From contig NZ_CP117452.1 in the NCBI RefSeq assembly GCF_030687895.1, positions 3,551,501 through 3,615,500 of the forward strand: a stretch of 64,000 bases of DNA, read 5' to 3'. Made by a program: the position numbers and the translations under genes. Numbering within the stretch: position 1 is the first letter of the stretch; every line of letters begins with the position of its first letter. Under the pieces are notes generated by a model. It made no database searches, was not told where the DNA came from, and saw only the letters and a list, made by a program, of their open reading frames with translations. Origin of the DNA: Pseudomonas sp. FP198. Its GTDB lineage: Bacteria > Pseudomonadota > Gammaproteobacteria > Pseudomonadales > Pseudomonadaceae. Positions 17,362-28,492 of the stretch are shown here, one piece after another.

Positions 17362-17393
17362 CGCTTCAACACTCCATGGAGAGGTATTCCCCA

Positions 17394-19056
17394 ATGAAAT
17401 GGTTCTACGACCTTAGAATCGCCACCAAACTGATCACCTCGTTCCTCGTGGTGTTGGCGCTGACCGCCGTCATGGGCGTGTTCTCGATCATCCAGCTGGG
17501 CCAGGTGAACGGCACCACCACCGAGATCCGCGAAAACTGGATGCCGTCCATGCGCGCGGCCTCGGGCATGCGCTTCTTTGCCGCGAGCTTTCGACTCAAG
17601 GAAAACCGTCACATTTCCGCCGACTCCGAGCAAGAACGCGTAACGCTGGAGCAGGAAGCCGACGAAGCCAAAAAAGCTTTCGAAACACGCTTGGGCACTT
17701 ATGAAAAACTGCTCTCCAATGCCGAAGACCGTCAGCTGTTCGAAACCACTCGCAATGACTGGAACGCTTACCTGGTGGTCAGCAAGGATCTGTTCGCGCT
17801 GTCCCGTCAGAACCAGACCGAACAAGCCATGGCGCTGCTCAAGGGCGAGTCCAAGCGTCAGTTCGACCTGATCACCAGCGATCTGCAAAAACTCGTGGAA
17901 CTGAACGACGCCGGCGCCGGTGCCGCCAGTGAACACGGCACCGCGCTGTATGAAAAAGCGCGCCTGTCGATCATCGCCGTGCTGGCTGCCGCCTTGCTCG
18001 TGGGCCTGGGCCTGGCGCTGTTCATTTCGCGGATCATTTCCCGTCCGCTGAAGCAGGCCGCCGCTGTCGCCGAACAACTGGCCGAAGGCAACCTGAACGC
18101 GAAAATCGAAGCCGGCTCCAAGGACGAGACCGGCATGGTGCTCAACGCCATGCAGAACATGGTCGGCAAGCTTTCGCACATCATCGGTGAAGTACGCAAC
18201 GCGGCGGACAACCTTGCCAGCGCCTCCGAAGAAGTCAGCGCCACCGCGCAATCGATGAGCCAGGCCACCAGCGAACAGGCGGCCAGCGTCGAGGAAACCA
18301 GCGCCTCCATCGAACAGATGAGCGCCAGCATCAACCAGAACACCGAGAACGCCAAGGTTACCGACGGCATGGCCAGCAAGGCCGCCAAGGAAGCCACCGA
18401 CGGCGGCGAATCGGTGCAGCAGACCGTGGTGGCGATGAAAAAAATCGCCCAGCGCATCAGCATCATCGACGACATCGCCTACCAGACCAACCTGCTGGCG
18501 CTCAACGCGGCCATCGAAGCGGCCCGCGCCGGCCGGGGAACACGGCAAAGGCTTCGCGGTGGTCGCCGCCGAAGTGCGCAAACTGGCTGAGCGCAGCCAG
18601 GTTGCCGCCCAGGAAATCGGCGAGCTGTCGTCCAGCAGCGTCGACATGGCGGAGAAGGCCGGGAACCTGCTCAACGAAATGGTCCCGTCCATCAACAAGA
18701 CTTCGGACCTGGTGCAGGAAATCAGCGCCGCGTCCGAAGAACAGGCCGCCGGCGTGGCGCAGATCAACACCGCCATGACGCAGCTCAACCAGGTGACCCA
18801 GCAGAACGCCTCCAGCAGCGAAGAACTGGCCGCCACCGCTGAAGAGATGAGCAGCCAGGCCGAACAGCTGCAACAGGCCATGAGCTTCTTCACCCTGGAC
18901 ACGCCGGCCAAGTCCGCCATGCAGAGCGCCAGGGTCGATAACACCCCGGGTCCGTCCAGCCGCAAACCGGCGCGGGCACCGGCACCGGTGATGCCCAAGG
19001 CGTTTGCCTACAACATGGCCAGCGCGCCGGACGAATCGGAATTCACCCGGTTCTGA
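17394..19056 (+). pseudogene. methyl-accepting chemotaxis protein, frameshifted by a CCGG duplication
   Basis: Without the shift this would be a 552-residue MCP: a TM helix near the N-terminus, a four-helix-bundle ligand domain (MPSMRAASGMRFFAASFRLK onward), a second TM (about residues 192-213), HAMP, and a full signalling domain. The frame breaks at 18529-18536, where CCGG is duplicated. Removing one copy restores the invariant tip [27 protein letters not shown]. As written, translation ends at 18590 after about 398 residues, so the CheA/CheW contact tip's second arm and the C-terminal EFTRF (a possible CheR-tethering pentapeptide) are lost. ATG at 17394 follows GAGAGG. The break is real mutation or an assembly error; the sequence cannot say which. 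Confidence 0.85.
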
Positions 19057-19095
19057 TGGCCCGGTTCCACAGGCTTGCCTAAAGGAGAAAAAGCT

Positions 19096-19632
19096 ATGGG
19101 CGCCATCGCGACCACACGTCAGACCGTCAGCGCGGTCGAGGAAGAAGCGCAATACCTGACGTTCATGCTCGGCACGGAGATGTTCGCCATCGGCATCCTG
19201 TGCATCAAGGAAATCATCGAGTACGGCAACCTGACCGTCGTGCCGATGATGCCGGCCTTCGTGCGCGGGGTGATCAACCTGCGCGGCGCAGTGGTGCCGG
19301 TGGTGGACCTGTCGGCCCGCTTCGGCCGGCCAAATTCCGCCATCAGCCGGCGCAGCTGCGTGGTCATCATCGAGGCCGCCAGCGCCGACGGGCAAGCCCA
19401 AGACATCGGCCTGCTGGTGGACACGGTGTCGGCGGTGCTGGAGATCCCGGCCTCGCAGATCGAACCACCGCCCAGTTTCGGCGCGAAGATCCGCGCCGAC
19501 TTCATCAGCGGCATGGCCAAGGTCGATGGCAAGTTTGTCATCGTGCTGGAGGTCGACCGGGTGCTGTCCATCGACGAGATGTCCGAACTCGCCCAGGCCA
19601 GCCCCGCTGCGTTGGAAGCGCCAGCCTCATGA
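19096..19632 (+). CDS. cheW: chemotaxis coupling protein CheW
   Basis: A 178-residue CheW that links receptors to CheA. Core signs are YLTFMLGTEMFAIGILCIKEIIEYGNLTVVPMMPAFVRGVINLRGAVVPVVDLSARF, written here as one continuous stretch near residues 16-75 in the protein, and GLLVDTVSAVLEIPASQIEPPP. ATG at 19096 is preferred over 19075 because AAAGGAG lies eight bases upstream of it. Its stop overlaps the cheR start (ATGA). Confidence 0.93.
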   Translation: MGAIATTRQTVSAVEEEAQYLTFMLGTEMFAIGILCIKEIIEYGNLTVVPMMPAFVRGVINLRGAVVPVVDLSARFGRPNSAISRRSCVVIIEAASADGQAQDIGLLVDTVSAVLEIPASQIEPPPSFGAKIRADFISGMAKVDGKFVIVLEVDRVLSIDEMSELAQASPAALEAPAS

Positions 19633-20465
19633 GCACGGACATTTGCAAGGAACGCACAGTGAATTCAATGGCCCTCACCGACCGGGAGTTCAGCCAGTTC
19701 CAATCCTGGCTGTACCAGGCCGCCGGCATCAACCTGTCGCCGGCCAAGAAAGCCCTGGTGGCCGGGCGGCTGTTCAAGCGCCTCAAGCACTATGAGCTGG
19801 ACAGCTACGGCGAATATTTCAAGCTGATCATGAGCGGCCAGCGCAGCGACGAATTGCAGGTGGCGCTGGACCTGCTCACGACCAACGAGACCTATTTTTT
19901 CCGCGAGCCCAAGCACTTCGACTTTCTTCGCGACCATGTGCTGCCGCACGCGACGCCGGGCAAGACCTTCCGCCTGTGGAGCGCGGCCAGCTCCTCCGGC
20001 GAGGAACCCTACAGCCTCGCCATGACCCTGGCCGAAAGCCTGGGCACCACGCCTTGGGAAGTCATCGGTTCGGACATCAGCACCCAGGTGCTGGCCAAGG
20101 CCCGTTCCGGGCATTACCCGATGGAACGCGCGCGCAACCTGCCCCATCCGTTGCTGGTGAAATATTGCCTCAAGGGCACCGGCAGCCAGCAAGGCACGAT
20201 GCTCATCGATCGGGCCCTGCGCAACCGCGTCAACTTCATCCAGGTCAACCTCAACGACACACTGCCGGAGCTGGGGGAGTTCGACGTAATCTTTCTGCGC
20301 AACGTGATGATCTATTTCGACCAGCCGACCAAAAGTAAAGTGGTTGCCCGGTTGATCCCTCGGCTCAAGTCCGGCGGGTATTTCATCGTCAGCCATTCGG
20401 AGAGCCTCAATGGCGTATCCGATGCGCTGAAGTTGGTCGCCCCTTCGATTTATCGCAAGCCATGA
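19629..20465 (+). CDS. cheR: chemoreceptor glutamate methyltransferase CheR
   Basis: A 278-residue S-adenosylmethionine-dependent methyltransferase that methylates receptor glutamates. The N-terminal all-helical domain (FSQFQSWLYQAAGINLSPAKKALVAGRL) is followed by LTTNETYFFREPKHFDFLRD, the SAM-binding WSAASSSGEEPYSLAMTLAE and the FLRNVMIYFD motif. ATG at 19629 overlaps the cheW stop; a GTG at 19659-19661 with AAGGAA upstream is an alternative start. The frame is open back to 19200 inside cheW, but that extension is a shadow. It overlaps cheD by four bases. Confidence 0.93.
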   Translation: MSTDICKERTVNSMALTDREFSQFQSWLYQAAGINLSPAKKALVAGRLFKRLKHYELDSYGEYFKLIMSGQRSDELQVALDLLTTNETYFFREPKHFDFLRDHVLPHATPGKTFRLWSAASSSGEEPYSLAMTLAESLGTTPWEVIGSDISTQVLAKARSGHYPMERARNLPHPLLVKYCLKGTGSQQGTMLIDRALRNRVNFIQVNLNDTLPELGEFDVIFLRNVMIYFDQPTKSKVVARLIPRLKSGGYFIVSHSESLNGVSDALKLVAPSIYRKP

Positions 20466-20959
20466 GCGCCGCGATAAAGCAGGTGGCGGAGATCTACCTC
20501 GGTCCGGGAGAGTTTCGCTTCGCGACCTGCCCGACCCGGCTGCGGACGATCCTCGGTTCGTGCGTGGCGATCACGCTCTGGCACCCGCAACGCAAGATCG
20601 GCGGCATGTGCCACTTCATGTTGCCCAGCCGGGTGCGTTGCTCTACCGCGCTGAACGGGATGTACGCCGATGAAGCCATCGAACTGTTCGTCCGCCAGGC
20701 CCGGGCCCATCGCACCGAGCCTGAGGAATACCAGCTCAAGCTGTTCGGCGGCGGCGAGATGTTTCCCGAACTGCAACGCCATGTGCCGTACGGCGACGTG
20801 GCGCGGTCGAACGTCAACGCGGCGCTGGAAATGGCCGCGCTCTATCGCCTGGACCTGATCGCCCAGGACATGGGCAGCACCGGCCACCGCAGCATCATTT
20901 TCGACCTTTGCACGGGCGACGTCTGGGTCAGGCACCAACCGATAAGGACCCTGCACTAA
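20462..20959 (+). CDS. cheD: chemoreceptor glutamine deamidase CheD
   Basis: A 165-residue deamidase that converts receptor glutamines to glutamates. The catalytic Cys lies in [14 protein letters not shown], the His in GGMCHFMLP, and the conserved FGGGEMF loop follows. It overlaps cheR by four bases (ATGA) and is followed by cheB after two bases, so cheR-cheD-cheB form one adaptation unit. Length and motifs are standard. Confidence 0.93.
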
Positions 20960-20961
20960 CC

Positions 20962-22041
20962 ATGTCAGGCAAAAAGATAAACGTACTGCTGGTGGATGAT
21001 TCCGCCGTGGTCCGCCAGGTATTGCTGGCGATCCTGAGTGACACGCCGGACATCAACGTCATCGGTGCGGCTTCCGACCCGATCTTCGCCATGGACAAAC
21101 TGGCGAAGGAATGGCCCGACGTGATCGTGATGGACGTGGAGATGCCGCGCATGGACGGCATCACTTTCCTGAAAAAAATCATGAGCGAACGGCCCACCCC
21201 GGTGGTGATCTGCTCGTCGCTGACGCCCAAGGGCGCGGAAACCACCCTGCAAGCGATGGCCGCCGGGGCGGTGGAAATCATCACCAAACCCACCAGCGGC
21301 TTGAAGAACTTCCTCTTGGAATCGGCCCCGGAACTGGTGTCCGCCATCCGCGCCGCCGCCCAGGTCAACGTCCGCAACCTGGGCAAGCGCCCGGCTCCGG
21401 CAGTGCCGCTGACCCCGGCGACCAAACTCACCGCCGACGCCATGCTGCCCGCCGCCAACGGCCACGCCATGGCCCAGACCACCGAACGCATCGTCGCCAT
21501 GGGCACCTCCACCGGCGGCACCCAGGCGCTGGAAGCAGTGCTTACCGCCCTGCCACGGGTGTGTCCGGGCATTGTCATCGTCCAGCACATGCCGGAAAAA
21601 TTCACCGCGTCGTTCGCCGCGCGGCTCAACAGCCTCTGCCAGATCGAAGTGCGCGAAGCGAAAAACAACGACCGCATCCACCCGGGCCTGGCCCTCATCG
21701 CTCCCGGCGGCAAACACATGATGGTGACCCGCAGCGGCGCGTTTTATCACGTGCAGGTAGTGGACGGCCCGCTGGTGAACCGTCATCGCCCGTCGGTGGA
21801 CGTGCTGTTCCGCTCGGTGGCGAAGTTCGCCGGGCGCAATGCCACGGGCATCATCATGACCGGCATGGGCGACGACGGCGCCCGCGGCCTCAAGGAAATG
21901 CTCGACGCCGGCAGCGCCACCGTAGCCCAGGACGAGGCCAGCTGCGTGGTGTTCGGCATGCCCAAGGAAGCCATCAAACTCAACGCCGCGCAGCGGGTGA
22001 TGCCGTTGCAGGAGATTGCGCAAGTGATATTGCATCGCTGA
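20962..22041 (+). CDS. cheB: chemotaxis methylesterase/deamidase CheB
   Basis: A 359-residue protein with an N-terminal receiver (VDDSAVVRQ, phosphorylated Asp58 in [13 protein letters not shown]) and a C-terminal methylesterase domain with the catalytic Ser in [13 protein letters not shown], the His in [14 protein letters not shown] and the Asp in [14 protein letters not shown]. Phosphorylation by CheA activates removal of receptor methyl groups. The start at 20962 is two bases after cheD. Last gene of the cluster; a REP pair follows. Confidence 0.95.
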
Positions 22042-23142: not shown

Positions 23143-23817
23143 TCAAGAAGTCGCTGTTATCAGACCTCGCTCAAGCGCTGCAGCGATGATGTCGGCTGCA
23201 GGTACGTTGACCCAAGTAAAAATGTCTACGTCCTGCCTGGACGCAAGCCAACACCCCACCATCTGGTAGCCCAGCGAGTACCCCAGCCATTTGGGCTTGT
23301 TCCCACTACCAAAAAACCATTCGCTGTGATCGTAATAACTCGATTCAAGTGCTTGCAGCCCAACCGGAGAATTCAACAGTTCAGTTGAGCCAACTTCTCG
23401 CTCCCAACGCTCTGGATCGGTGTTGAGCAGATATCGGGCGAACTGCCCGGCAAGTCCTTCGCTCACCAAAGCCTCGCCCAACGTCCAGCCATAGCCCGGC
23501 CCTGCCATGCGCAGACAATGATGGACCTCATGGATAACCTGACGACGTAGCGCGCCAGCACGCAGGTTGGGAATGAAGTTGGGATTATCTGGATCAAGCG
23601 TCATGCTGAACATCGAGCTTCGATACGCTCGCCCTACCAGGCCCAATTCCGGAATGGTTTCGCCCGGCAACCGCTGGACCAGGACATCAAGTCGAGGCGG
23701 GACCATCCGAAAAGCCAAGGCCTCATAAGCGGTTTCGAACTCACCAACCAGCTCCTTGCGAAACTCAGCCAGACTCCCCGAGGCTTCTAGCCAGTGCAAC
23801 GTCCATGCGTCCATCAA
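23143..23817 (-). CDS. putative zinc-dependent protease (DUF2268-like)
   Basis: A 224-residue cytoplasmic protein with a gluzincin-type motif: VIHEVHHCLRMAG (HExxH) followed 20 or so residues later by GEALVSEGLAGQFA, whose Glu would be the third zinc ligand. This HEVHH...SEGLA arrangement is that of DUF2268 (YjaZ-like) predicted metalloproteases. The C-terminal half has YSLGYQMVGCWLA, also typical. No signal peptide. Substrate unknown. It converges with the secreted protein gene. Confidence 0.65.
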   Translation of the reverse strand: MMDAWTLHWLEASGSLAEFRKELVGEFETAYEALAFRMVPPRLDVLVQRLPGETIPELGLVGRAYRSSMFSMTLDPDNPNFIPNLRAGALRRQVIHEVHHCLRMAGPGYGWTLGEALVSEGLAGQFARYLLNTDPERWEREVGSTELLNSPVGLQALESSYYDHSEWFFGSGNKPKWLGYSLGYQMVGCWLASRQDVDIFTWVNVPAADIIAAALERGLITATS

Positions 23818-23950: not shown

Positions 23951-24574
23951 ATGACCATGCCTGATCAAAACATCAAGAACGATGCACACCCCCACAGCCT
24001 GCTAAACGGCTCATGGCTGAACGAACCGAAAATCCACTCCGCGCCCACAACAAACTCCCTGCACCTGGAAACCGACAACGCTACCGACTTCTGGCGCGAA
24101 ACCCACTACGGCTTCACCCATGACAGCGGCCATTTCCTAGGCGTCGAAGCCTCTCCCAGCTTCACCTGCCAGCTACGCATCCGCGGCAACTTCGAAGCCC
24201 TGTACGACCAGGCCGGCCTGATGGTCCGCATCAACGAACGCCAATGGGTCAAGGCCGGGATCGAACTGAGCGACGGCCAGGCGATGCTCGGCAGCGTCCT
24301 CACCGACGGACAATCCGACTGGGCGACCAGCCCGTACATCGCCGATCCCGGCGATTTCTGGATGCGCGCCACGGTCGCCAACGGCGTACTGCGCTTGCAG
24401 GTTTCCGCCGATGGACTTCGTTGGCCGCTGGTGCGCTTATGCCCGTTTCCCATCGCACCGACCTACCGCGTCGGCCCGATGGCGTGCAGCCCCAAGCGCG
24501 GCGGCTTGAAAGTCGCTTTTTCCGACTGGACGCTCGGACCCGCGCTGGGCAAGGACTTGCATGATCTGACCTGA
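23951..24574 (+). CDS. DUF1349 family protein (concanavalin-like fold)
   Basis: A 207-residue protein with the DUF1349 signature: FWRETHYGFTHDSGHFLGVE, then YDQAGLMVRINERQWVKAGIE, FWMRATVANGVLRLQVSADG and the closing RVGPMACSPKRGGLKVAFSDW. The fold is a beta-sandwich like concanavalin A lectins. Yeast and bacterial members have been described as enolase-regulation-like proteins, but the biochemical role is not established. No signal peptide is seen. It lies upstream of the RiPP locus but 231 bases away. Confidence 0.75.
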   Translation: MTMPDQNIKNDAHPHSLLNGSWLNEPKIHSAPTTNSLHLETDNATDFWRETHYGFTHDSGHFLGVEASPSFTCQLRIRGNFEALYDQAGLMVRINERQWVKAGIELSDGQAMLGSVLTDGQSDWATSPYIADPGDFWMRATVANGVLRLQVSADGLRWPLVRLCPFPIAPTYRVGPMACSPKRGGLKVAFSDWTLGPALGKDLHDLT

Positions 24575-24805
24575 GCGCGGCCCCTGTTGCAGCGCTCTGT
24601 ATCCGCGACACACAGCAATACAAACACACCGCCGCACGACACATCCCAGATACACGACAAGCGCCAAATGGCCCCGTCCGAACAGGCAGTCGCGCCTTGC
24701 TTCGACCCGACGTGCGCAGCACCGGGCAAGCAACGTGACGCCGCCACGGCACACGCCCCGCGCAACGTTGCCAGGGGCCACACAGCTCTTATCTGGAGAA
24801 ATCTC
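24575..24805. promoter_or_regulatory. leader region of the EGKCG RiPP operon
   Basis: 231 bases between the DUF1349 gene and the RiPP precursor. It presumably carries the operon promoter; GGAG precedes the precursor start. No clear CueR, CsoR or ECF-type box was found by eye. Confidence 0.35.
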
Positions 24806-25270
24806 ATGACCCGTACAAAAAACTCCAACACCGCTCGCCTCGCCCTTGCCGCACTTGCCTTGTCCGGCGGCTTGAGCCTCGCCCAGTCGGCTTTCGCGGT
24901 CGACGCCCTGCCCCAGGGTTATCAACTGGCCTCGGCGGAAAAAACCTCTGAAGGCAAGTGCGGCGAAGGCAAATGCGGCGCCGCCGAATCGGGCAAAAAA
25001 GTCACCCAGGCCGAAGGCAAATGCGGTGAAGGCAAATGTGGCGACGCGTCCTTCGCCCGCACCGACACCGACAAAGATGATCGCGTGTCGCTGAAGGAAT
25101 TCCTCAGCGTGGCGCCGACCGAAAAAGCCGAGTTCGAAAAGATGGACAGCAACCACGACGGTTACCTGTCCGAAGCGGAAACCTACAAATACCGCACCGG
25201 CCAGTACACCGCCAACGGCAAGAAAGTGCCCACCGAGCTGTTCACCCGCATGAGCCAAGCCAAGGAATAA
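24806..25270 (+). CDS. EGKCG-repeat RiPP precursor fused to EF-hands (HvfA/bufferin-like)
   Basis: A 154-residue secreted protein. Signal peptide to about Ala31 (AQSAFA), then four EGKCG motifs in two tandem pairs (residues 49-58 and 70-79), which hold the only four cysteines of the mature chain. After them come two EF-hand loops: D87-T-D-K-D-D-R-V-S-L-K-E98, which lacks the usual Gly6, and the fully canonical D114-S-N-H-D-G-Y-L-S-E-A-E125. EGKCG cysteines in HvfA-type precursors are known to be converted to oxazolone-thioamide groups that bind copper, by an MNIO enzyme with a partner protein; exactly those two genes follow here. The EF-hand half suggests calcium binding or an EF-hand-derived carrier. 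Start at 24806 follows GGAG. Modification and metal are inferred. Confidence 0.75.
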   Translation: MTRTKNSNTARLALAALALSGGLSLAQSAFAVDALPQGYQLASAEKTSEGKCGEGKCGAAESGKKVTQAEGKCGEGKCGDASFARTDTDKDDRVSLKEFLSVAPTEKAEFEKMDSNHDGYLSEAETYKYRTGQYTANGKKVPTELFTRMSQAKE

Positions 25271-25336
25271 AGCCCTTCGCCCGCACCCTCCCGGCGGTTC
25301 ACACCGGGAGGGTCTGGCCAGCCCTGGAGAATTGCG

Positions 25337-26188
25337 ATGAGCACCTTCACTTCACCCAACGGCGCCGGGCTCGGCCTGCGTCGCGCCATGCTTGGCGACT
25401 TGCTGAAAATGCCCCCGAACGCGGTGGATTTCCTCGAATGCGCGCCGGACAACTGGATCGGCGTCGGCGGCGTCTACGCCGAACAACTCGATCAACTGGC
25501 CGCAAAGCACCCCATCACCTGCCACGGTCTGTCCTTGTCCCTCGGCGGCCCACAGCCTCTCGACCTCGACCTGCTACGCGGCACCCGACGCTTTCTCGAT
25601 CGCTACGCCGTGGCGATCTACAGCGAGCACCTGAGCTATTGCTCCGCCAGCGGCCACCTCTACGACCTCCTGCCGATCCCCTTCACCGAAGAAGCCGTGC
25701 ACTACGTTGCCGCCCGCATACGCCAGACCCAGGACATTCTGGGCCAGCGCATCGCCGTGGAAAACATCTCCTACTACGCCGCGCCCTTCCAGGCCATGAG
25801 CGAAATCGACTTCATCACCGCGGTCCTCGAAGAAGCCGACTGCGACCTGCTGCTGGACGTCAACAACCTCTACGTCAACGCCATCAACCACCGCTACGAC
25901 GCCGAAAAGTTCCTCGCCGCCCTGCCCGCGCAGCGCGTCAGCTACCTGCACGTCGCCGGCCATTACGACGAAGCCGACGACCTGAAAATCGACACCCACG
26001 GCGCCGCCGTCAAGCAAGATGTCTGGACACTTCTGTACCAGACCTACCAACGATTCGGACCGGTGCCGACATTGCTGGAACGCGACTTCAACTTCCCGCC
26101 ATTGACCGAACTGCTCGCCGAAGTCGGGCAGGTCAAACAGCTGCAACAACTCGCCTGCCCGGCAACCCCGGAGGCCCGCCATGCCTGA
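25337..26188 (+). CDS. MNIO (DUF692) multinuclear iron oxidase of RiPP maturation
   Basis: A 283-residue TIM-barrel iron enzyme of the MNIO/DUF692 family (BufB/HvfB). Probable metal ligands are visible: His63 (ITCHG), Glu97-His98 (YSEHLSY), Glu142 (AVENIS), Asp174 and Asn176 (LLLDVNN), His205 and His209 (LHVAGH), Asp219 and His221 (DTHG), Glu249 (LLERD). Family members oxidise cysteines in precursor peptides. It lies 66 bases after the EGKCG precursor and overlaps the partner gene by eight bases, so the natural substrate is very likely the preceding precursor. Confidence 0.88.
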
Positions 26189-26921
26189 ACACCTGCTCGA
26201 TCAACTCAACTGCATGGCCAACTTCGTCCGCAACCCCCACCACCCGCCCCCACCCGGGCTGGAACCCCGACGCCTGGCCATCTACCGCCAACTGTTCATC
26301 GGCAACATCGAATCACTGCTCGCCGCCAGCTTCCCGGTCATCCACCAAACCCTGCCGCGCGCCGACTGGCAACGACTGGTCCACGACTTCTACGCCAACT
26401 ACCGCTGCCAGACGCCGCTGTTCACACAGCTGGCCGGCGAATTTGTCGCCTACCTGGAGCAACACGAGGATCTCCACGATTTCCCACCATGGCTGCCCGA
26501 ACTCGCCCAGCACGAATGGAGCGAAAGCGCCCTGCTGCTGAGCGATGCGGTGGAACCGTCACACAATCCCCACGGCGATCTGATCGAAGGCACGCCCGTG
26601 GTATCCCGACGCGCCCAGGCGCATGCCTATGAATGGCCGGTGTGCGACATCGGACCGGATCATCAGCCCACCGAAAAGCCTGCGGCCCCAACGTTGGTGC
26701 TGCTGCAGCGGCGCGAAGGGCACGTGACGTTTTCGCGGATGGCGCCAATGGCGTATGCGCTGTTGGTTTCGCTGATGGAGCATCGGCGCAGCGGGCGCGA
26801 GCATCTGGTGGCGTTGGCTGAGGTGGCTGGGGTGTCGGCGCGGGAGTTGATGCCAATGGGAGTGGCGGCGCTTGAGGGGTTCAAGGCGCGGGGGGTTGTG
26901 TTGGGGACGCGTTGGGGGTGA
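26181..26921 (+). CDS. DUF2063 partner protein (HvfC/BufC-like)
   Basis: A 246-residue protein with the DUF2063 domain in its first 95 or so residues ([30 protein letters not shown], then [20 protein letters not shown]). These proteins pair with MNIO enzymes and bind the precursor leader or core for modification. The second half (residues 100-246) is less conserved and includes a run resembling a winged-helix segment. It overlaps the MNIO gene by eight bases. No exporter or DoxX gene follows, so the operon appears limited to three genes. Confidence 0.82.
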
Positions 26922-27591: not shown

Positions 27592-27918
27592 ATGATCGAC
27601 AAGAAAATATATGAGGTCCAGCAGACACCCGATTTTGAGGATTGGCTTGCCGGTGTGAAGGATGCTCAAGGGAAAGCGGCTATTTTGGCGCGTCTGGATC
27701 GCGCCGGAAATGGAAATTTTGGTGATAGTGAGCCGGTTGGTGATGGAATCAGCGAAATGCGGGTTTTTAATGGACCGGGGTATAGGATTTATTTTGTACG
27801 CTCGGGGATCGTAGAGTACCTGATGCTCATCGGAAGCGATAAAACAGATCAAAAAAGAGGTATCAAGAGAGCCAAAATGATCCTTGATAGCCTGAGAGGT
27901 AAATGTAATGAGCGATAA
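27592..27918 (+). CDS. RelE/HigB-like toxin (addiction module killer protein)
   Basis: A 108-residue toxin of the RelE/ParE superfamily (COG3657 type), which usually cleaves mRNA on ribosomes. Landmarks are FEDWLAGVKDAQGKAAILARLDRAGNGNFGDSEPVGDGISEMRVFNGPGYRIYFV, spread over about residues 12-66, and the ending with GSDKTDQKRGIKRAKMIL. ATG at 27592 is chosen because the ATG at 27574 lies inside a perfect palindrome that looks like an operator; translation from 27574 would add six residues. It overlaps the antitoxin gene by 11 bases. The toxin-first order is typical of this HigBA-like family. Codon use is more AT-rich than in flanking genes, suggesting acquisition. Confidence 0.85.
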   Translation: MIDKKIYEVQQTPDFEDWLAGVKDAQGKAAILARLDRAGNGNFGDSEPVGDGISEMRVFNGPGYRIYFVRSGIVEYLMLIGSDKTDQKRGIKRAKMILDSLRGKCNER

Positions 27919-28492
27919 ATTCAACCCTGAGGACATGCCGGTTCTTAATCTCAACACAACCAGTACGACTCGTTACGAGGCTTCTCGCTTTCTCGATAAT
28001 CCAGAAGCTATAGCAGCTTATCTGGCTGAAAGTATGAAGGCCGCTGATACGGAGGGGCTAATCCATGCTTTGGCAGAGGTCGCCAAATCCAAGGGAATCA
28101 ATAAAGTTTCCAAGGATGCCGGGGTTAATCGTGAAAGCCTCTACAAGGCACTGAAATCCAGTGCAAAACCCAGGTTTGAAACTATCAGAAAACTGATGAC
28201 GGCGATGGGTGTAGAACTCACAGTACAACCGATTAAAGGACCAGAGGGGCCTTCGAAAGTTGTGGCTCAGAAAACTGACAAACCACCAGTAGCTGCTACA
28301 AAAAATTCGGCAAAAACCACTGCCAGGAAACCAATTGAGGCAAAAACTGAGCCAGACGCGACACGTACTCCGAGCAAACCAGCGGCGGCCAAGCCAGCCG
28401 CACCGGAGAGACGCCTAGGCGTACCCGGCCTTGACAATACAAATAACAAAAAGAGGCCCCACGAAGGGATGGAGTTATCAGCAAGCAAATAA
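27908..28492 (+). CDS. HigA-like antitoxin with long C-terminal tail
   Basis: A 194-residue antitoxin. Residues 18-105 match the helix-turn-helix antidote family paired with COG3657 toxins (EASRFLDNPEAIAAYLAESM, then GLIHALAEVAKSKGINKVSK and AGVNRESLYKALKSSAKPRFETIRKLMTAMG). Family members usually stop near residue 100, but here about 85 more residues follow that are Lys/Ala/Pro/Thr-rich and look disordered, ending RPHEGMELSASK. The function of the tail is unknown; it could bind DNA or nucleic acid non-specifically or expose a protease site. It overlaps the toxin gene by 11 bases. Confidence 0.82.
   Translation: MSDKFNPEDMPVLNLNTTSTTRYEASRFLDNPEAIAAYLAESMKAADTEGLIHALAEVAKSKGINKVSKDAGVNRESLYKALKSSAKPRFETIRKLMTAMGVELTVQPIKGPEGPSKVVAQKTDKPPVAATKNSAKTTARKPIEAKTEPDATRTPSKPAAAKPAAPERRLGVPGLDNTNNKKRPHEGMELSASK

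Follow-up and report, generated by a model that had tools for sequence, protein, structure and literature searches.

What do three adjacent genes make when a secreted EF-hand protein with cysteine motifs of the EGKCG type is encoded directly before an MNIO peptide maturase and its DUF2063 partner? This arrangement occupies positions 24806-26921 of a 64,000-nucleotide stretch of DNA from Pseudomonas sp. FP198 (contig NZ_CP117452.1), which we analysed as a whole and refer to as the window. A first-pass annotation had read the locus as a new variant of the EGKCG class of ribosomally synthesised and post-translationally modified peptides (RiPPs). We conclude that the triad is a real, conserved and ordinary member of a class that was described in 2025 and has been studied under the name EfhP since 2014. 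We add to this description the co-occurrence of HvfC and precursor, the frequent separation of precursor and enzyme genes, and a promoter signature common to both. In the reading that we favour, with a probability of roughly two in three, the triad yields an EfhP-like periplasmic protein for two metals, in which a modified copper arm is joined to a Ca2+ domain, probably under BfmR-type control. Papers are cited by PMC number, and statements about them cover the parts of each text available to us.

The precursor gene starts with an ATG at 24806 and stops at 25270 on the forward strand; open reading frame (ORF) calls and family profiles identify an EfhP-like, HvfA-family protein of 154 residues. 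Residues 1-31 (24806-24898) read by eye as a putative Sec signal peptide, with a basic start, a hydrophobic stretch and AFA-V. Two EGKCGEGKCG pairs lie in residues 49-79 (24950-25042), with motifs starting at residues 49, 54, 70 and 75. The protein has four cysteines in all (52, 57, 73 and 78), every one inside an EGKCG motif, and these are the expected modification sites. The first EF-hand loop, DTDKDDRVSLKE (residues 87-98; 25064-25099), has D and not G at loop position 6, and the second, DSNHDGYLSEAE (residues 114-125; 25145-25180), is canonical. Protein length, motif number and pairing, and loop boundaries are exactly those of the first-pass annotation. The precursor scores above the cut-offs of Pfam families EF-hand_7, EF-hand_1 and EF-hand_6, and of the NCBIfam KCGExKCG_twice model of the HvfA family (NF050137; 41.5 bits against 19.5), such that its earlier description as an HvfA-like precursor fused to EF-hands holds. 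The HvfA equivalog NF050188 is matched by the motif part alone, at 27.5 bits against a cut-off of 95. Residues 1-83 of the predicted structure have a predicted local distance difference test score (pLDDT) below 50, and the rest falls in blocks of 60 to 83 and is predicted to be EF-hand-like. We rejected a kinship with lanmodulin (NF053806, 18.1 against 135 bits), for which the PDB sequence match was also weak (E 0.0019).

The next two genes, on the same strand, encode an HvfB-family MNIO peptide maturase (25337-26188) and an HvfC-family partner (26181-26921), in line with the MNIO and DUF2063 protein of the first-pass annotation; the start of the DUF2063 gene at 26181 overlaps the end of the MNIO gene at 26188. 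The MNIO matches PF05114 (351.5 bits) and exceeds the cut-off of the HvfB family NF003818 (434.4 against 360 bits). Its partner matches PF09836 and, at its C-terminus, NGO1945_C, and exceeds the cut-off of the HvfC family NF050145 (235 against 142 bits). By sequence, the closest solved MNIO is 3bww, described as a close relative of HvfB (PMC13419390). That paper names N175, D242 and H244 as the HvfB site-3 ligands, and by our own reading the DVNN and DTHG stretches of the window MNIO may hold the equivalent residues. The genome, a single 5.86-Mb contig, has one precursor match and one MNIO.

A search for relatives of the precursor found 1706 proteins, of which we counted motifs and loops in the best 120. 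All 120 have two EF-type loops together with 2 to 8 EGKCG motifs, and the architecture is thus more than chance. Neither loop varies at positions 1, 5 and 12, so that the earlier proposal withstands the refuting condition set for it, a lack of loop conservation in orthologues. In loop 1, 95/120 of these proteins have G at position 6, where the window protein has D. The EGKCG pairs and most EF ligands are also invariant across 19 aligned relatives. Most rows naming an organism name Pseudomonas, and many of the 120 carry the database label of an HvfA family oxazolone/thioamide-modified RiPP metallophore. We also took the best 80 of 333 named-genome loci, a set selected by motif since the scan pattern was EGKCGEGK. 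Here, forms joining EGKCG and EF-hands come from Pseudomonas, Stenotrophomonas, Lysobacter, Luteimonas, Pseudoxanthomonas and a few other organisms; EF loops are missing at seven loci with EGKCG motifs, and one locus (L029) has a single loop. Three similar precursors, P0003, the window protein and P0001, have 133, 154 and 175 residues and 2, 4 and 6 EGKCG motifs, respectively. These length steps are whole 21-residue blocks, and the copy number of the EGKCG module seems variable.

Published work places this protein in a known class, and the suggestion that the EF-hand fusion is new is rejected on the literature. Proteins with an EGKCG domain and two EF-hands are the second type of Buf_EGKCG proteins of Antoine et al. 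2025 (PMC12452194), who name P. aeruginosa EfhP as an example and suggest a role for Ca2+. Like these Buf_EGKCG/EF-hand_5 chimaeras, also named oxazolin precursors, the window protein has a signal or membrane helix (by eye) followed by a short N-terminal EGKCG domain, an N-terminal part without predicted structure, two C-terminal EF-hands, and adjacent MNIO and DUF2063 (PME-type 1) partners; it is one member, with no difference in kind. PMC12452194 describes EF-hands only C-terminal to the motif, and in a rearranged form at L106, L107 and L119 EGKCG flanks the EF-hand pair on both sides (one or two motifs before, two after). The efhP-DUF692-DUF2063 operon was published in 2014 (PMC4053335), in the same order as in the window. 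As described in print, EfhP (PA4107) resembles the window protein: it combines two EF-hands with EGKCG repeats, four in number (PMC11559002), and is predicted to be periplasmic (PMC9132961); the window protein differs in having D for G at position 6 of loop 1.

The enzymes have better-studied relatives in the HvfABC oxazolin system of Haemophilus influenzae and the fontiphorin system FonABC (captophorins). These share the HvfB and HvfC families and the EGKCG substrate motif with the window locus, but no EF-hands are mentioned for FonA or HvfA in the available text of PMC12668002 and PMC13419390, respectively. The first-pass annotation expected an oxazolone-thioamide product. This is better stated as a 5-thiooxazole (-4 Da per cysteine), to which the FonBC and HvfBC products are now assigned (PMC12668002, PMC13419390); products of this class are reported to absorb near 305 nm (PMC12668002). 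Two substrate lengths were tried in PMC12668002, and modification was seen only on the two-repeat one. The window locus also shares an MNIO, a DUF2063 partner and a putatively Sec-exported precursor with the bufferins (BufA/BufB); unlike these, its MNIO falls below the cut-off of the BufB bufferin maturase (NF050167; 275.4 against 310 bits), and a family profile search found no DUF2282 match in its precursor. Bufferin-like MNIO loci with small secreted cysteine proteins (MEKC...GKNDC) were seen at L096, L098 and L099, and genomes G011 and G012 have a bufferin-like MNIO locus next to a separate HvfB-type locus.

We searched an even draw of 119 genomes from the window's genus with profiles for precursor, MNIO and HvfC. 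The precursor model matched in 53 genomes, PF05114 in 96 and HvfC above cut-off in 52. An EGKCG precursor is matched in all 52 HvfC genomes and in none of 66 of the 67 others (Fisher p 3e-33, not corrected for kinship); in the remaining one, G040, the precursor gene is frameshifted. Among the HvfC genomes, 44 have an EF-type match and eight have only a short EGKCG protein, each with 2 to 5 EGKCG motifs and no EF loops.

Precursor and enzymes are frequently apart. By the coordinates of matches, and without correction for kinship, an EF-type precursor lies beside the enzymes in 19 and apart from them in 26 of the 45 genomes that have one. Separation is certain in the 11 of these 26 genomes that are single contigs; in the others a contig break could conceal an adjacent gene, above all in G050 and in G136, where HvfC is near a contig end and the precursor near a contig start. 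Also counted among the 26 are G040 and G075, with EF-type precursors (L122 and L129) that are broken by frameshifts; HvfC is above cut-off in G075 and not in G040. In G117, three EF precursors go with a single MNIO. Many of the 80 named-genome loci likewise have no MNIO inside 5 kb. We searched 29 genomes with such loci, and each has an MNIO at another place, although for G017 this is just a fragment that covers 65 profile positions close to the start of a contig. These genomes overlap the 119-genome draw in part (for instance, MNIO places are shared by G117 and G013, by G143 and G012, and by G031 and G004). Linkage was read from the best MNIO matches, HvfC matches and tblastn together: no MNIO or partner was found at 30 unlinked EF-type loci in flanks of about 2 kb, shorter where a contig ends, and tblastn of both window enzymes against L120-L149 gave no match. 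The unlinked precursors retain their motifs, with an EGKCG pair in one frame in 29 of the 30 loci fetched.

The enzyme operons give the converse picture. No EGKCG gene lies beside 20 of 22 distinct lone HvfBC operons, and the other two (L093 and L156) have a short one. When 1500 bases upstream of 16 lone operons were scanned without a start-codon filter, an EGKCG precursor was found in L093 only; a candidate in L090 was rejected as a chance GKC. On an HvfB tree, most unlinked enzymes form one lineage, beside relatives with the order HvfB-HvfC-precursor, and the unlinked state needs four changes, at least three of which are forced. The window MNIO groups among the linked triads, with the enzyme of P. 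frederiksbergensis SI8 (92% identity). Precursors of this kind without an MNIO were reported in few genomes, 67 of 2583, in PMC12452194, which also considers that bufferin precursors distant from MNIO genes might depend on enzymes of another locus, or stay unmodified; homologues without the operon neighbours are mentioned in PMC4053335. In many Pseudomonas, a single HvfBC pair seems to act on EF-hand precursors, one or several, whose genes lie elsewhere in the genome. Our case that modification happens in trans, and that precursor and enzymes are under common control, is circumstantial.

Shared control is suggested by a signature upstream of the window precursor (24619-24673, forward strand), which consists of TACAAA (24619-24624), GACACA (24638-24643), a 5-nt spacer, GATACA (24649-24654) and AAATGGCC (24666-24673). 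The exact tandem GAYACA-N5-GATACA occurs twice in the 5.86-Mb genome. One occurrence is 5' of the precursor; the other (L157) falls inside an ORF and was taken as chance. We then compared stretches upstream of 47 of 48 precursor loci (L122 was dropped) and of the window's own with those of lone MNIO operons (23 minus L093 and L156). With up to two mismatches, the tandem is present at 19/19 linked precursors, 28/29 unlinked precursors and 21/21 lone MNIO operons (20 distinct); in first-order shuffles it turns up in 1.4 to 1.7%. A stricter pattern is found at 15/19 linked precursors, 26/29 unlinked precursors and 1/20 lone MNIO operons, L151 being omitted here as a repeat of L090. In the genus of G170, the tandem is present within one mismatch at 20/20 precursor loci; 25 genomes were searched, and five had no precursor match and hence no promoter. 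In a wider set it occurs within two mismatches at 26/37 loci, with the upstream sequence taken before the start of the match and therefore inside the gene for some distant loci. The 11 loci without it are those from Xanthomonadales, Steroidobacter and Nitrosomonas.

The tandem resembles the site of BfmR, an OmpR-family regulator. The published BfmR box is GATACAnnGC (PMC4148453), whereas the window promoter has GATACAnnAC. EfhP is reported to be under BfmR control (PMC8025907, PMC4148453). A near-EfhP locus, L197, whose EF loops are one residue off the published EfhP loops, has an exact tandem GATACA site upstream that includes GATACAnnGC. Because of this exact site, and because pa4107 is in the top three BfmR regions by chromatin immunoprecipitation (PMC8025907), a BfmR-like protein is a likely, though not proven, candidate regulator in this lineage. 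There is no exact match to the published BfmR 14-mer anywhere in the window genome. A crude motif scan of L001-L081 for BfmRS beside the precursor gave a single sensor-kinase-like ORF (L063) and a single regulator-like ORF (L072), and in the literature searched we did not find BfmR together with MNIO or with DUF692.

We propose that, in the cytoplasm, HvfB together with HvfC would oxidise the four cysteines of both EGKCGEGKCG pairs to 5-thiooxazoles, by analogy with the HvfBC/FonBC class. The modified precursor, still unfolded, would leave through Sec and then lose its signal peptide. In the periplasm the C-terminal EF-hand pair would fold on Ca2+, and the disordered modified arm, carried by the calcium-loaded domain, would bind excess copper. 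Transcription would probably be switched by a BfmR-type regulator of the OmpR family, and the enzyme pair need not adjoin its substrate, as one HvfBC could act in trans on distant EF-hand precursors. A more far-reaching version, which we hold to be doubtful, adds that the scattered precursors are co-regulated through this switch and that Ca2+ bound to the EF-hands controls copper binding or presentation by the thiooxazoles; the precursors, three of them in G117, would then form a periplasmic layer that captures copper in a calcium-dependent way, the product would be a two-metal sensor-buffer, and EfhP itself a post-translationally modified copper protein.

Other explanations share parts of this scheme. 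The protein might be a pure calcium sensor whose cysteine motifs stay unmodified and act, for example, in iron or redox sensing, as proposed for EfhP. Recombinant EfhP indeed binds Ca2+ and changes shape, and neither PA4106 nor DUF692 is mentioned in the available text of PMC9132961; iron sensing is put forward in PMC11559002, and some precursors sit apart from the enzymes. We nevertheless consider an unmodified sensor improbable, given that all 52 HvfC genomes have a motif protein, that the sole match without HvfC is a broken gene, and that in HvfA and FonA enzymes do modify this EGKCG motif (PMC12668002). A further explanation, possible but on balance unlikely, leaves the modification in place and denies the EF-hands a sensing role: they would be a folding and anchoring domain that holds the copper arm in the periplasm and whose Ca2+-bound form cannot slip back through Sec. 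EfhP binds Ca2+ with a Kd of 13.7 µM (PMC9132961). At the calcium levels of cytosol and periplasm, a domain of this affinity would be largely empty before export and filled after it. An anchor would also fit the predicted structure, in which the N-terminal arm is without confident structure and the EF pair is ordered, and the short EGKCG precursors without EF-hands in genomes with the same enzyme families. However, P. aeruginosa without efhP is altered in both gene expression and Ca2+ homeostasis (PMC4053335, PMC11559002), which goes beyond what a passive tag would do.

It is very unlikely, in our view, that the EGKCG arm is cleaved and released as a short copper-binding peptide, with the EF-hand half as a follower. 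According to PMC12668002, the mature EGKCG product could be either a single polypeptide or a set of smaller peptides, but the three genes include no protease family, and a follower is hard to reconcile with L106, L107 and L119, where EGKCG stands on both sides of the EF pair. We conclude that the window protein is most likely a BfmR-controlled periplasmic copper-plus-calcium protein, because the MNIO and its partner exceed their family cut-offs, the EGKCG pairs and EF loops are conserved, HvfC and precursor co-occur, and the tandem site is common to precursors and enzymes. If this is true, EfhP, which has been regarded as a calcium sensor in work since 2014, bears a copper-binding modification made by enzymes, and what has been seen with efhP mutants and with recombinant EfhP may have to be reinterpreted. 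The EfhP papers, in their available text, do not consider such a modification; PMC12452194 draws the link, for which we found no test in the available texts. Genomes with separate precursor and enzyme operons would allow modification in trans to be tested in a natural setting, and mining restricted to MNIO neighbours would miss such substrates.

Downstream of the triad lie a 90-residue ORF without a family and then a toxin-antitoxin pair of the HI1419/HI1420 type (27592-28492; NCBIfam TIGR02683 and TIGR02684). In agreement with the first-pass annotation, no DoxX was found in the three ORFs tested downstream of the triad, the remaining genome not having been searched for it. On the 5' side of the precursor are a DUF1349 protein (23951-24574, forward strand) and, on the opposite strand, a predicted protease of the DUF2268 family (23143-23817). 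Further upstream, the ORFs at 17376-22041 resemble a chemotaxis cluster, with what we take to be a receptor, a coupling protein, a methyltransferase, a deamidase and a methylesterase.
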